Shown here: positions 1-7,155 of the stretch, piece by piece
How the letters are laid out: each line of letters starts with the position of its first letter
Numbering within the stretch: position 1 is the stretch's first letter
Source of the DNA: Chloroflexota bacterium
Lineage (GTDB): Bacteria; Chloroflexota; Dormibacteria; CF-121
Length of the DNA stretch: 36,371 nucleotides
Reading direction: 5' to 3'
NCBI GenBank assembly: GCA_005880395.1
Contig: VBHQ01000047.1
Coordinates: 1 to 36,371, forward strand
Notes under the pieces: model-generated
Databases searched by the model: none
Told to the model about the DNA's origin: nothing
What the model saw: the letters and a program-made list of their open reading frames with translations, nothing else
Program-made: the position numbers and the translations under genes

Positions 1-463
1 TCGTCTCTGGGACCCGGAACCAGGTCTTGCCGGTGGCAAAGGTCACGGCGATATCGGTCGAGCCGAACCCCGCGGAGAAGCAGCCCAGCGCGCCGTAGGT
101 CGTGCTGTGTGAATCGGCGCCGACGACGATGCCGCCGGGCCGGACGAAGCCTTTCTCCACCATCAGCTGATGGCAGATACCTTCCTGAAAAACGTGGCGA
201 ACGCCAAACTCGCTGGCGAACTCGCGAACCTGCCGATGGAGTCCTGCGGCGGCGACCGTGTTTGCCGGCAGGATGTGATCGAAGACAAAGATCACGCGGT
301 CCGGATCCCACAGCGGCACCCCGAGCTGGCGGAAGGCTTCGATCGCGAGCGGCCCGGTAACGTCATGGGCCATCGCGTAGTCGACCGGTGCGACCACGAT
401 CTCACCGGCGTGAACGCTGCGGCCCAGCCGCGCAGAGAAGATCTCTTCGGTGAGGGTTCCCAT
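1..463 (-). CDS. leuC/hacA-like: 3-isopropylmalate dehydratase / homoaconitase large subunit (truncated at window edge)
   Basis: Minus-strand reading MGTLTEEIFSARLGRSVHAGEIVVAPVDYAMAHDVTGPLAIEAFRQLG...FVFDHILPANTVAAA...GGIVVGADSHSTTYGALGCFSAGFGSTDIA matches the aconitase-superfamily IPMD/homoaconitase large subunit; TGATG overlap with the upstream gene stop. Confidence 0.88.
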   Translation of the reverse strand, partial: MGTLTEEIFSARLGRSVHAGEIVVAPVDYAMAHDVTGPLAIEAFRQLGVPLWDPDRVIFVFDHILPANTVAAAGLHRQVREFASEFGVRHVFQEGICHQLMVEKGFVRPGGIVVGADSHSTTYGALGCFSAGFGSTDIAVTFATGKTWFRVPET

Positions 464-1487
464 CAGGCCGGTACCCTGCCGCGAAGCAAATCATCGAGCT
501 CATCAGTGCTGAGCGGTCTGGCGTCGGCTCGGCGCTTGACCTCCGCCGTAATCGTCCGAATCTCCTGATCGTTGAGGCTCAGCCCAAGCAGCGAAGCGCG
601 GTGGGCGATCACATGCCGGCCGGTTAGCCGGTGGCCGGTCATCAGCGTGCGCTCGCGGCCGAACTGCGCCGGATCGAAAATTTCGTAGGTCGATGGATCG
701 TTCAATACCGCATTGGTATGCATCCCCGCCTTGTGATGGAAGGCCGTGGCGCTGGTGATCGCGGCGTTGAAGGGGACCTCGATACCAACCATCTCGGCGA
801 CCATCCGATCGAGCTCCGGAAGGATCTCGAGCCGGTATTGGGAGACCAGCTCGGGGTTGATGCTCAGGAGGCGGGCGATCATGCCGCTCAGCGGCACGAT
901 GCCATTGCGCTCACCGATGCCGAGGATGGTGGTGTCGACGTGGGTGGCGCCCGCTTCCAGGGCGGCGAAGGCATTCGCGATCGCACATCCCGTGTCGTTG
1001 TGGGCGTGGAACTCGATATCGCAGTCGACCGCCTTGCGCACCATTGACACCAGCTCGAAGACCTGGCTGGGGGTGGCGATCCCAACTGTGTCGGCCAGCC
1101 CCACCCGTTGCGGGTGCAGACCACTTCCGTGCCAGATTCAATGATCTCGTCCACGCTCTTGCCGTGCGAGAAGGTGCGCAGCGTGGACGAGGTACCAAAC
1201 AGGACATCGATCCCGTCCGCGCCCGTTTGGACCGCGACCCGAGCGTCGTCCATGTGGCAGCGCACATGCGTGAGTACCTTGGCGCGCAATGGAAGGCCAG
1301 CCACCGTTCGGACGTCGGCCTCGGATTGAGGCGAAGCACAGGGCGACGTCAGCTCGAGGTATTCGACACCGAAGTCATCCAGGGTTTTTGCGATCGCGAC
1401 TTTCTGCGCCGGCGTGAAGTGAGCCAGCGCGAACTGCTCGCCTTCTCGAAGCGTCGACTCGATGATCTTGAACGCTCGTATTGACAT
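463..1487 (-). pseudogene. Homocitrate synthase (LYS20/NifV-type), disrupted by an internal loss of about 35 codons plus frameshift near 1106-1123
   Basis: N-part [49 protein letters not shown]...[50 protein letters not shown] and C-part [20 protein letters not shown]...[38 protein letters not shown] are both homocitrate-synthase like but in different frames, without the usual VRFSxEDxFRS segment between them. Confidence 0.85.
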
Positions 1488-1504
1488 GGCACCTCCAAGA
1501 ACAC

Positions 1505-1528
1505 AAAAAGCCTTCGTCCACCGGGACG
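1505..1528 (-). terminator. T-box intrinsic terminator
   Basis: Minus strand TCGTCC CGGT GGACGA AGGC TTTTT; mutually exclusive with the antiterminator. Confidence 0.85.
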
Positions 1529-1667
1529 AGAGGCTTCTCTCGTGGTACCACCCGACTTCGCCTGCCGCTCGCGCGGCCGGCCTCTTCGAGTCCGCGGCTC
1601 CTGTGCTTGAAGACTCCAGCCCGATCACGGGGGCCATCCGGCTCGGCCTACTGCGAACCTCCAGGTT

Positions 1668-1704
1668 CTCCCTCTCCCTCCGGGGGAGGGTCGGGGTGGG
1701 GGCT
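1668..1704 (+). repeat. Dispersed hairpin/G4 repeat, copy A (inside T-box leader)
   Basis: tctccctctccctccgggggagggtcggggtgggggct. Confidence 0.8.
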
Positions 1705-1842
1705 TCTGTTCGACCGGCGGCTCCGAGGCCTTTTTCGGCGGTGCCCTGGACCCTCCTTCTCAGCTGCCGGAGGTTCTCTGGAGTCCCAGCGTTCGCGTAC
1801 TCTCCCTCATCAACGCCTTTGCGTATGAACTTGTTGGCGCGA

Positions 1843-1871
1843 ACAATAACGGCATCGGTGCCCGGTGTCAA
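1843..1871 (-). promoter_or_regulatory. Sigma70-like promoter for the T-box/homocitrate synthase transcript
   Basis: Minus strand TTGACA (1866-1871), 17-nt spacer, TATTGT (1843-1848); the -35 overlaps the lysX stop codon. Confidence 0.75.
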
Positions 1872-2716
1872 GCGACGGCTTCGGTTTTTCGGACATGCAG
1901 CAGGTAATCGATGATCAGGTCCGGCACCGGAATGCCGGTTGCGCTCATGAAGCCATGGAATTCCGGCGTGTAGTTGAGCTCGTTGACGAGCAAGCCGTCC
2001 TCATGCTCCAACAGATCGATCGCGAGAAATCCGCCGCCGACGGCGTTCGCGGCCTCCTGGCAGAGTTCATGGATCTCCGGCGTCACGGGACACGGCGATG
2101 CCTGGCCGCTGCGCGCGGTGTTCGTGATCCAGTGTTCGGAGCTACGGTAAATCGCGCCGATCGTCTGCTCGCCCATCACGATCGCGCGAATGTCGCGCTC
2201 GGGCTTGTGCACGTATTCCTGGATATAGAAGATCCCGTGCTGGTATGACCCCAGCGTTTCCTTGTGCTCGAGCACCGCTTCTGCCGCGTCCCGGTCGTTG
2301 ATCTTGGCGAGCAGCCGTCCCCAGGAGCCGACCATCGGCTTGAGCACGACTGGATAGCCCATCTTCTCGATCGCTTCCAGCGCTGCTTCGCGAGTGAAGG
2401 CCACGACCGTCTTTGGAATGGGCACGCCGGCGGAAGCCAGTGTCGACGACGTCAGGATCTTGTCACCGCAGATCTGCGCGACGTGCCCGCTGTTGACGGT
2501 CGGGACGCCGGCCGCATTCAAGAGGCTGAGCGCGTAGAGCGAGCGGCCATGGTGGATGGACCGGTCCAGCACGACGTCCGTTGCCGGCACGTCTCCACCG
2601 ATCGGAAATTGCAGCTCGTCTTCGTTGAGCCGCTCAAAAGGGATGCCGCGACGACGCAAAGCCTCAAACAGGGCCTTCTCTTCGAAACGGACGCGGCTGC
2701 AGAGGATGCCGATCAC
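1868..2716 (-). CDS. lysX: LysX-like alpha-aminoadipate/glutamate--LysW ligase (RimK/ATP-grasp)
   Basis: [35 protein letters not shown]...[26 protein letters not shown]...[16 protein letters not shown]...[17 protein letters not shown]; typical LysX/ArgX. Probable GTG start at 2716, start uncertain. Confidence 0.9.
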
Positions 2717-2722
2717 GGTAGC

Positions 2723-2758
2723 TTGCGTAATTATACATACCTCCGTATACTTATGCGA
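2723..2758. promoter_or_regulatory. Divergent lysX/argG-like promoter with two candidate ARG boxes
   Basis: Box 1 TTGCGTAATTATACAT (2723-2738) and box 2 CCGTATACTTATGCGA (2743-2758), centres 20 bp apart; inverted arms GCGTAATTATAC / GTATACTTATGC. Plus-strand promoter TTGCGT-17-TATACT overlaps both; minus-strand -10 TATAAT at 2730-2735. Confidence 0.6.
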
Positions 2759-2782: not shown

Positions 2783-4027
2783 ATGCTGGCTGTAAAGAGC
2801 AAATTACTGGACAAGATCGAGGCGACGCCGGTGAAGACCGCAAAGAAAGTCGCGCTCGCATACTCGGGCGGTTTGGACTCATCGCTCTGCGCCGTGCTGG
2901 CGAAAGAGAAGTACCACGTCGAGGAGCTGTTTGCGATTACCGTCGACGTCGGACAGGGGCAGGACGAAATGGATGCCGCGATCCAGAAGGCGAAGGTCCT
3001 TGGCATCACGCCAATCGTCATCGACGCCAGGGCGGAGTTTGCCGAGCTGTGGCTGACCAAAGCCATCCAGGCGAACTCGAACTACGAGGGCTATCCCGTC
3101 TCTACGTCGATGACGCGGCAACTGATCGCCTCGAAAATCGCCGCCCTCGCCCTCAAGCTTGGCTGCGACGCGATCATGGAGGGCAGCAGCGGCAAGGGCA
3201 ACGACCAGTACCGCATGCATAACGTGTTCAAGCTGTTCGCGCCGCAGCTCGATGTCCTGGTCCCTGTGCGCGATTTCGACCTGACCCGGGGCGAGGAAGA
3301 AGAGCTCTCCAAGGAACTCGGCATACCGATCACCGAAGTCATGCAAGGCGGCGATGACAAGACGATGTGGTGCCGCAGCCTGGCGTCGGGCGCCATCGGG
3401 CTCAACCAGCCGATCCCGGAACACGCCTGGCTGTGGTGGAAGTCGGCGGGAAAGACGAAGTCCACCCCGACAAAGGTTTCGGTGACGTTCGAGCATGGCA
3501 TCCCGGTCGCGTTCGACGGCAACGAGCTATCGCTCCCCGAGATCGTCTCGCAGCTCAATGTGGTCGCCGGCAGCCACGGCATCGGGAAGATCGATATCTT
3601 CGAAGACGGCATCATGGGCCTGAAGTCGCGGGAGCTCTATGAGGCGCCCGCCGCCGCCGTGCTGCTCAAACTGCACCATGACCTCGAGCAGTTCTGTCTG
3701 ACCAAAGAGGAGCTCGAGTTCAAGGCGTTGGTCGACCAGAAGTGGGGATCCCTCGTCTATCACGGCGCCTGGTTCAGCCCGCTGAAGGATGCGCTCGACG
3801 GCTTCATTGCGACCACCCAGGCGCATGTCAGTGGTACCCAGGTCGCGACGCTGTTTCAGGGCGCGATCGACATCGACTCGCGGCAGAGCGATCAGTCGTT
3901 GTTCTTTCCGGAGATCCGGGGTTTGCAGAGCCGTAGCTTCAACCAGCAGCTCTGCGGCCCGGCGGCACAAATCGCCGGATTGTCCTGGGAAGTGCTGGCC
4001 AAGCGGATGGCGAAGGTCAACCACTGA
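2783..4027 (+). CDS. Argininosuccinate synthase-like protein (divergent paralog)
   Basis: SD AGGAGG then [25 protein letters not shown]-loop, [35 protein letters not shown]; lacks the canonical HGxTGKGNDQVRF and SPYSxDENLWGRSIE blocks. Confidence 0.85.
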
Positions 4028-5337
4028 GCCAGCAGCCCTGGGGCGGGCGCTTCAAGGAAGAGCCGGACCCGCTCATCGATCGCTTCACGCGGTCGCTGGC
4101 GGTCGATAGCCGGCTTTTCCACGAGGACATCACCGGCAGCCGGGCCTACGCAAAGGCCCTGGTTGGCGTCGGTGTCCTCACGCGCGATGAGCAAGCGCAA
4201 ATCGACGGAGCCCTGGCTGCCATAGAAACCGACCTTACGAATCACCCGTTCTCTTCCCCTCCCCCTCTGGGGGAGGGCAGGGTGGCGGCTCCCGTCGCCG
4301 AAGACATTCACATGTTTGTCGAGCAACGCCTGATCGAAAAACTCGGGCCCTTGGGCGGCAAACTCCACACCGGCCGAAGCCGGAATGACCAGGTCACCCT
4401 CGACCTCCGCCTCTACGTCAAGGCGGCCGGTGCCGACCTCCTCACTGCGATAGCAGCGTTGCAATCCGCCCTGGTCGGCCGGGCCAGAGAACAGATCGAG
4501 ACGGTTATGCCCGGCTACACCCACACCCAGCGAGCTCAGCCGGTGTTGCTCGCGCATCATCTGCTGGCCTACGTCGAGATGTTGCACCGCGATCATGGCC
4601 GTATCAAGGACGCCGTCAAGCGCGCTGATTTATCTCCCCTCGGGGCGGGCGCCCTGGCCGGCAGTGGGTTCCCGATCGATCGGCAGGTGTCGGCCTGCAG
4701 CATCGCGATGATCCATCTCTCGCGCCTCTGCGGCGAGATCGTGCTCTGGACCAGCGTCGAGTTCTCCTTTGCGACGCTCCCCGATGGGCTCGCAAGCGGC
4801 AGTTCGATGATGCCCAATAAGAAGAATCCGTGCGCCGCCGAACTGGTTCGCGCCAAAAGTGGTCGGGTCGCCGGCGATCTCGTGAACCTGTTGATGGTCC
4901 TCAAGGGCCTGCCCCTCGCCTACAACCGCGATTTGCAGGAAGACAAAGAGGCGCTCTTCGATGCGGTCGACACCACGCACGACTGCCTGCAGGTGACGGC
5001 AACGCTCGTCGAGGGTCTTCGATTCGATGTCGACCAAATGCGGGCAGCAGCGGTCACCGGCTACACGCTCGCCACCGAACTGGCGGATTATCTCTCGAGA
5101 AAGGGCATGCCCTTTCGGGACGCCCACCGCGTGATTGGTCAACTGGTCGCCTCGGCGGCCGCTTCCAACCGAAGCCTCGAATCCTATTCGGTCGGCGAGC
5201 TCAGTGCATTTTCGCCGCTGTTTGGTGCCGACGTGGCCGAGCATCTGACCCTCGAAGGCGCGCTCAAATCGCGCGACGTGCTTGGTGGCACCGCACCGTC
5301 ACGAGTTCGCGAGGCGCTGGCGCATGTCGAAACGTAA
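4024..5337 (+). CDS. argH: Argininosuccinate lyase
   Basis: [45 protein letters not shown]...AEDIHMFVEQRLIEKLGPLGGKLHTGRSRNDQVTLDLRLY...GSSMMPNKKNP. Apparent CTG start at 4024 overlapping the upstream TGA. Confidence 0.93.
   Translation: MSQQPWGGRFKEEPDPLIDRFTRSLAVDSRLFHEDITGSRAYAKALVGVGVLTRDEQAQIDGALAAIETDLTNHPFSSPPPLGEGRVAAPVAEDIHMFVEQRLIEKLGPLGGKLHTGRSRNDQVTLDLRLYVKAAGADLLTAIAALQSALVGRAREQIETVMPGYTHTQRAQPVLLAHHLLAYVEMLHRDHGRIKDAVKRADLSPLGAGALAGSGFPIDRQVSACSIAMIHLSRLCGEIVLWTSVEFSFATLPDGLASGSSMMPNKKNPCAAELVRAKSGRVAGDLVNLLMVLKGLPLAYNRDLQEDKEALFDAVDTTHDCLQVTATLVEGLRFDVDQMRAAAVTGYTLATELADYLSRKGMPFRDAHRVIGQLVASAAASNRSLESYSVGELSAFSPLFGADVAEHLTLEGALKSRDVLGGTAPSRVREALAHVET
4251..4290 (+). repeat. 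Dispersed CCCTCCCCC-TCT-GGGGGAGGG hairpin/G4 repeat, copy B (inside argH)
   Basis: tcttcccctccccctctgggggagggcagggtggcggct; 9-bp perfect arms. Confidence 0.8.
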
Positions 5338-5806
5338 GCGGCAGGAGGCGATCCTCTCGATCATCGCCAAGCATCCGGTGTCCACGCAGGAAGAACTGGT
5401 TGAGCGGCTGCAGCGCGCCGGGATTGCCACCACGCAGGCGACCGTCTCCCGCGATATCGCCGAGCTCGGCCTGGTACGCGTCGCCGGCGCCGACAGCCAC
5501 TACATCAAACCGGATGAGGGGATGGGCGCAGCCTCGCCGGCCGGTCGAGAAGATCGCTTGCGACGGTTGTTGCGCGACCTGCCGATGACGGTCCGGCGTG
5601 GCCAGGGCCTGGCGGTGCTGTCGACGACGCCGGGGTCGGCGAACCCTCTCGCCTCCGCAATCGACGGTGCCGGATGGCCCGAAGTCCTGGGGACCGTGGC
5701 GGGCGACGACACCATCTTCGTCGCGCTCGCCGTGCAGCCCCGCGCGTATAGCGGCCTGGCCCAGCGGCTTGCCCGGCTGGGCGCCTACGTCCAACCGGAG
5801 GACTGA
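5324..5806 (+). CDS. argR: Arginine repressor ArgR
   Basis: MSKRKRQEAILSIIAKHPVSTQEELVERLQRAGIATTQATVSRDIAELGLVRV...; ArgR N-terminal wHTH and C-terminal domain. Confidence 0.93.
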   Translation: MSKRKRQEAILSIIAKHPVSTQEELVERLQRAGIATTQATVSRDIAELGLVRVAGADSHYIKPDEGMGAASPAGREDRLRRLLRDLPMTVRRGQGLAVLSTTPGSANPLASAIDGAGWPEVLGTVAGDDTIFVALAVQPRAYSGLAQRLARLGAYVQPED

Positions 5807-7155
5807 TGCCCGAGAAGATCGTGCTCGCGTATTCCGGCGGGCTCGACACCACCGTCGCGGTGAAGTGGCTGACGGAAACTCGCGGCTTCGACGTGATCGC
5901 CCTGACCGTCGATCTCGGCAGCCAGCCGAAGCTGGCCGCCATCCGCCAGCGCGCCCTCGCAGCAGGCGCGAGCAAAGCCTTTGTCTTCGACGCTCGTACG
6001 CCCTTCATCGAGCGCTTTTGCTGGCCAGCCCTCAAGGCCGGTGCGCTGTACCAGGACCAGTACCCGCTGGCGACGGCGCTAGGGCGGCCGCTGATCGCTC
6101 AGCTGTTGGTTGAAGTCGCGACGCGGGAGGGCGCCACCTGGATCGCACACGGCTCGACTGGCAAGGGCAACGACCAGGTCCGGTTCGATATCGCGACCGG
6201 TGCCCTGGCGCCGCATCTGAAGGTGCTGGCTCCCCTCCGGGACGGCATGACGATGAGCCGTGAGCAGGAAATCGCCTACGCCCAAGAACATGGCTTGCAA
6301 ATTGAAATCAGACCCGAGTCGCCGTACAGTGTGGATGAGAATCTGTGGGGGCGCTCCATCGAAGCCGGCGTGCTGGAGGATGCGATTCTCAAGCCCCCCG
6401 AGGACGCGTTTCTCTGGACCGCCTCGGTGGACACCGCCCCCGCCAGCCCAACGGTCATCGAGCTCGGCTTTGAACAGGGGATACCTACCAGTCTCAGTCC
6501 ATCTCCCTCCCCCTCTGGGGGAGGGCAGGGTGGGGGCCTCGGCCTCGTCAGCGAGCTCAACCGTATCGGCGGTATTCACGGCGTCGGACGCATCGACATG
6601 ATCGAGGATCGGTTTGTCGGCATCAAGTCTCGCGAGGTCTACGAGGCGCCTGCCGCCGTGATCCTGCATCATGCGCACCGCGCCCTGGAAGAGCTCGTAC
6701 TCGATGGCGAAGCGGCTCGCTTCAAAACGTCCGTCGCCCAGGAATATGCCCGGCTCGTCTACCAGGGCAAGTGGTTCAGCCGGCACCGGCGCGACCTCGA
6801 TGCCTACGTCGACAGCACCCAGGCATTGGTGACGGGCAAAGTGTTCGTGAAACTGCACAAGGGGAACGCCCAGGTCGCAGGCCGCTCGTCGCCATACTCG
6901 CTCTATCGGCCGCGGCTCGCGACCTACTCGTCAGGCGACCAGTTCGACCACCAGGCGGCCGTCGGTTTCATCAAGCTGGTCGGTCTTCCGATTCGAACCC
7001 AGGCCGAGGTCCAGGGCACCGCGAACGTTGCTTCGCTACTGCAGGATGACCGCCATGTTGTTGAAGTCGGTCCAGGAGCCCTCGAAGGCGGCCTTGCTGA
7101 ACCAGTACTGGCTGCCACTCTTCCAGGGATCGTTGACCCGAACCTGGGTCGCTGA
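5806..7155 (+). CDS. argG: Argininosuccinate synthase (canonical)
   Basis: [22 protein letters not shown]...ALYQDQYPLATALGRPLIAQLL...HGSTGKGNDQVRF...SPYSVDENLWGRSIEAGVLED; carries a low-complexity insert [19 protein letters not shown]. Confidence 0.95.
   Translation: MPEKIVLAYSGGLDTTVAVKWLTETRGFDVIALTVDLGSQPKLAAIRQRALAAGASKAFVFDARTPFIERFCWPALKAGALYQDQYPLATALGRPLIAQLLVEVATREGATWIAHGSTGKGNDQVRFDIATGALAPHLKVLAPLRDGMTMSREQEIAYAQEHGLQIEIRPESPYSVDENLWGRSIEAGVLEDAILKPPEDAFLWTASVDTAPASPTVIELGFEQGIPTSLSPSPSPSGGGQGGGLGLVSELNRIGGIHGVGRIDMIEDRFVGIKSREVYEAPAAVILHHAHRALEELVLDGEAARFKTSVAQEYARLVYQGKWFSRHRRDLDAYVDSTQALVTGKVFVKLHKGNAQVAGRSSPYSLYRPRLATYSSGDQFDHQAAVGFIKLVGLPIRTQAEVQGTANVASLLQDDRHVVEVGPGALEGGLAEPVLAATLPGIVDPNLGR
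6501..6540 (+). repeat. Dispersed hairpin/G4 repeat, copy C (in-frame inside argG)
   Basis: atctccctccccctctgggggagggcagggtgggggcctc; four G-tracts GGGGG-A-GGG-CA-GGG-T-GGGGG. Confidence 0.85.

Follow-up and report, generated by a model that had tools for sequence, protein, structure and literature searches.

Organization of the Locus

The window analyzed in this study (the whole 36,371-nucleotide stretch of contig VBHQ01000047.1) belongs to a Chloroflexota bacterium whose closest named relatives are soil Chloroflexi MAGs. On its minus strand, a leader (1836-1488) separates a lysX-type gene, which ends at 1868, from a homocitrate synthase (HCS) gene with its ATG at 1487; HCS is followed by a homoaconitase or LysT-type gene that is cut off at the contig edge (Table 1). 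The leader presents the full set of T-box elements, namely stem I with its S-turn and distal T-loops, stem II, stem III, the antiterminator, and a competing terminator, and its promoter overlaps the lysX stop codon. Each of the 17 leaders in the family of the window has a promoter of this kind (TTGACA-N17/18-TATNGT) at a comparable distance.

In relatives, the T-box heads the gene order HCS-lysT-lysU-lysW-lysX-lysK-lysY-lysZ which, judged by its gene content, is the complete LysW/aminoadipate lysine operon. A second lysX is located inside this operon; the lysX of the window is a paralogue of it, about 64-67% identical, and its position upstream of the conserved promoter places it outside the T-box transcription unit. 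The initial annotation had named the LysW lysine pathway as the target and had drawn the adjoining lysX into this argument; the complete operon of the relatives bears out the pathway, but not the role of lysX, which is not controlled by the leader. Based on its paralogy and its place beside argG/argH, the window lysX may serve arginine synthesis. argH lies between two distinct genes for argininosuccinate synthase (window 2783-4027 and 5806-7155), the first of them divergent from lysX. Regarding the DAP pathway, neither dapA nor lysA scored over the cut-off in the 18 family genomes, with sub-threshold lysA-like proteins in three of them (the window's genome included) and dapA-like proteins in all 18. 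In one relative (L094:4059-4833, genome G037), HCS, LysT, and LysU match only as short pieces of 51-74 residues, as if internally collapsed.

Table 1. Features of the T-box leader and neighboring genes (window positions).
Feature	Position	Strand	Basis
T-box leader, stem I to antiterminator	1519..1822	-	RF00230 match (cmscan 56.6 bits, E 9.4e-12) and covariation
Stem I, GA/K-turn-like base	1721..1820	-	Alignment to RF00230; invariant columns in leader alignment
Specifier-loop strand GAAAAAGG, read GAA-A-AAG-G	1729..1736	-	RF00230 alignment; AAG invariant across HCS leaders
Specifier codon AAG (Lys)	1732-1730	-	RF00230 alignment
Stem II, S-turn strands GAA (1711-1709) and AGUA (1652-1649)	1644..1716	-	RF00230 match; leader alignment
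Stem III, purine-rich flanks	1561..1587	-	RF00230 match; covariation; flank motif as in PMC7583486
Antiterminator CGGG-UGGUACC-ACGAG / CUCGU-CCCG	1522..1554	-	RF00230 match; helix pairing in alignment
Putative intrinsic terminator AGCCU..CGUCC/GGACG.AGGCU, then UUUUU	1505..1535	-	Hairpin 1535-1509, -16.3 kcal/mol; U-run
Putative sigma-70-type promoter, -35 TTGACA (1871-1866), 17-nt spacer, -10 TATTGT (1848-1843)	1843..1871	-	Sequence; conserved in family
Homocitrate synthase (HCS, TIGR02146), interrupted	463..1487	-	Family match; comparison with relatives
Homoaconitase / LysT-type large subunit, ends at contig edge	2..463	-	Family match
LysX-family ATP-grasp ligase, upstream of promoter	1868..2725	-	TIGR02144, 338.6 bits (cut-off 275.6)

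Architecture and Conservation of the T-Box Leader

The closing pairs of stem I are formed by GAGG (1808-1805) with CCUC (1728-1725), the S-turn contains AGUA at 1801-1798, and the distal T-loops place AGAGA (1779-1775) opposite GCUGAGA (1764-1758); both the AGUA/GAA S-turn and the T-loops align to RF00230 and are conserved. The closing pairs, the AGUA S-turn, and the distal AGAGA hairpin, together with the antiterminator and the competing terminator with its T-run, had been proposed in the initial annotation, and all of them were recovered on this strand, at the proposed positions or close to them. Stem II carries an insert of ~50 nt whose length differs between relatives, and the purine-rich flanks of stem III correspond to the motif described for T-box discriminators (PMC7583486). 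The T-box sequence UGGUACC occupies 1550-1544, of which UGGU (1550-1547) is complementary to the ACCA end of tRNA. The terminator and antiterminator overlap through a common CUCGUCC and are therefore mutually exclusive.

The assignment to the T-box class is backed by a match to RF00230 over the full model length (1-219), although its score falls below the curated gathering cut-off of 93 bits, probably as a consequence of the ~50-nt insert and the high G+C content. A chance match is ruled out by the E-value and by covariation. The HCS leader L118, from another Chloroflexota family, reached 103.8 bits and thus exceeds the cut-off. The minimum-free-energy fold of the whole leader did not yield the T-box fold and had an uninformative z-score of -1.3, and automatic folding of the antiterminator region favored the terminator, as expected without tRNA. 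No match to the lysine riboswitch (RF00168) was obtained in the window or the leader with covariance-model searches.

T-boxes in general are widespread, occurring in 359 of 400 genomes of the phylum, and a class-wide search detected them in 56 of 110 genomes. In the window's own family, a T-box immediately precedes HCS in 17 genomes, counting that of the window. A T-box also stands before HCS in f3, another family of this class (L016/L094, L018/L096, L032/L097, and L081), and in five more Chloroflexota families, represented by L099, L115, L118, L143, and L144. An alignment of 20 HCS leaders, in which 46 RF00230 pairs were scored, showed these pairs formed in 88.6% of cells, with changes on both sides in 24 pairs; shuffling gave 6.3 such pairs, and sliding the partners gave no more than 8. 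Both-side changes affected six of the seven pairs of helix 8 (stem III), and antiterminator helices 9 and 10 were paired in 98.8-100% of cells. The terminator helix was paired in 93.4% of cells, but without covariation beyond shuffles in the same alignment. One leader, L144:1687-1941, combines an AAG specifier with an unusual antiterminator bulge, UGGGAUC in place of UGGNACC.

A whole-genome search returned the window copy and one weaker T-box. A second T-box was observed in the family (L002:1501-1741(-), L085-L089, L092, and L093), most copies having a very short stem I. Downstream of it lie a small ORF resembling ribbon-helix-helix proteins and a TPP enzyme similar to acetolactate synthase; the specifier of this T-box is ambiguous, being either CUC (Leu) or UCA (Ser).

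Hairpins with U-runs are present in the window's family, L118, L143, and L099, and were recognized by eye in L115 and L144. No U-run terminator was found in the HCS leaders of family f3 (L081, L096, and L097), an absence which suggests that the T-boxes of that family may act on translation. That the leader of the window would control the start of translation rather than the termination of transcription, a form that may exist in f3, is very unlikely, as the hairpin and U-rich run overlap the antiterminator in the window's family, L099, L115, L118, L143, and L144. It is very unlikely that the leader is a decayed, non-functional element on a broken gene of this genome, as might be suggested by the stem II insert and by HCS itself, which lacks 103 bp (near 1104-1110) present in its relatives and is thereby out of frame. 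The core residues of the T-box are all preserved, as is the promoter, HCS is whole in related species, and the 103-bp deletion is probably an assembly error, given that argH (window 4282-5337), on this contig too, is split into two family matches and that the assembly is 79% complete and comprises 221 contigs.

Specifier Codon and Cognate tRNA

The specifier column reads AAG (Lys) in all 26 HCS leaders, which represent seven Chloroflexota families, whereas the base before it varies among A, C, and G (position 4) and the base after it among G, A, and C (position 8). The lysine specifier predicted earlier as AAA or AAG is thereby retained, with AAG rather than AAA as the codon; covariance-model alignment placed it there and not at a non-lysine codon such as Leu, one of two outcomes that would have contradicted the prediction, and the conservation anticipated for orthologous leaders was found. 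A specifier for leucine or another amino acid was seen in no HCS leader. Because of five consecutive C residues, the L118 leader can alternatively be read as AAA, likewise Lys. Internal controls behaved as expected: before aspS (L015), this column shows GAC together with a UGGC bulge, and before ileS (family f4) it shows AUC, the identities of these genes being taken from inspection of their translated starts.

Among the 30 of 42 tRNA matches in the genome from which tRNAs were drawn, a tRNA-Lys(CUU) ending in ACCA was identified, complementary to both AAG and UGGU. The tRNA-Arg(CCU) of the genome also ends in ACCA, discriminator base A73 being common to both, so the UGGU end alone would also accommodate a specifier read one base later (AGG). 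Such a tRNA-Arg sensor, which would tie HCS to arginine supply and for which the AGG or AGA codons at +1 in most leaders, the divergent argG/argH genes, and the adjoining second lysX-like gene could be invoked, is highly improbable, because L118 would then have a serine codon (AGC) at +1, the specifier is set at AAG both by the covariance model and by the '+0' convention of TBDB (PMC7778990), the downstream operon is a lysine operon, and a lysine riboswitch precedes its ortholog in another clade.

Proposed Mechanism of Regulation

We are confident that the leader is a transcription-attenuating T-box that would sense tRNA-Lys(CUU) and control an aminoadipate/LysW lysine operon starting with HCS. 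This reading draws on sequence evidence, namely the anatomy and covariation of the T-box, the conserved AAG, the genes that make up the operon in relatives, the cognate tRNA gene, and promoter- and terminator-like sequences, while tRNA binding, the response to charging, and the direction of regulation are predicted from the established T-box mechanism. Transcription would start just downstream of lysX, and the nascent leader would recognize tRNA-Lys via the AAG specifier of stem I. With uncharged tRNA-Lys, the ACCA end would pair with UGGU, allowing the antiterminator to form and the operon to be transcribed; with charged tRNA-Lys, the terminator hairpin would form and transcription would stop. 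The net effect would be an operon that is switched on when lysine runs out.

Lysine-Responsive RNAs on Orthologous Operons

A lysine riboswitch (RF00168) was found directly upstream of HCS at nine of ten loci in families f32 and f45, the covered upstream sequence of the tenth comprising only 195 bases. Elsewhere in Chloroflexota, then, a lysine-responsive RNA stands on the same operon, in independent support of the lysine reading. Riboswitch matches of 41-85 bits stand in place of the T-box before orthologous HCS at L105, L107, L109, L110, L111, L112, L113, L114, and L116. When the presence of the T-box was traced on the HCS tree, at least six changes were needed, as estimated by a quick method on a tree with long branches and with the rows labeled as 'none' including L109 and L113, later found to carry the riboswitch. 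This number of changes suggests that the T-box was gained or lost several times, or that it is old and was patchily lost. It is likely that two interchangeable RNA sensors occupy one place on the LysW/aminoadipate operon of Chloroflexota, with a T-box for tRNA-Lys(CUU) in seven or more families and a riboswitch for free lysine in a separate clade. If true, control of the aminoadipate lysine route by tRNA sensing would be seen here for the first time.

Comparison with Known Systems

The T-box is a well-known type of switch, and its target pathway here is apparently new. The initial annotation knew of no such combination, and our literature search, whose reach ended short of two key surveys (Vitreschak 2008 and Gutierrez-Preciado 2009), likewise returned no T-box on the LysW pathway or associated with homocitrate synthase and lysine. 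Every element of the long-stem-I transcriptional class of RF00230 is shared by the window leader, including the UGGN bulge, S-turns, distal T-loops, and competing terminator; however, the leader has a lower score, probably due to its high G+C content and insert, and its target operon is without report in the literature covered.

The lysine T-boxes of Firmicutes have a lysine specifier and tRNA-Lys as ligand, as predicted for the window leader. In Bacillus cereus, the lysK T-box controls a class I LysRS (PMC2916919), and in B. halodurans a Lys T-box controls a lysine permease (PMC2494555). In contrast with these synthetase or transporter targets, the only ones found for known lysine T-boxes, a whole aminoadipate-route biosynthetic operon of Chloroflexota would be under tRNA-Lys control here, through an AAG specifier. 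According to TBDB, Lys specifiers are among the least common, and 3'-A is always favored over 3'-G (PMC7778990). The T-boxes described in Dehalococcoides, before ileS, trpE, and a trpB-like gene (PMC2494555), also belong to Chloroflexota but differ in their amino acids and genes. In addition, the T-box finding supports the lysine assignment of these LysW operons in an uncultured lineage. The lysine riboswitch (L-box, RF00168) is likewise found on lysine genes, but it binds free lysine instead of tRNA and has an unrelated RNA structure; the two thus offer a natural comparison between the sensing of charged tRNA and of free lysine on one orthologous operon.
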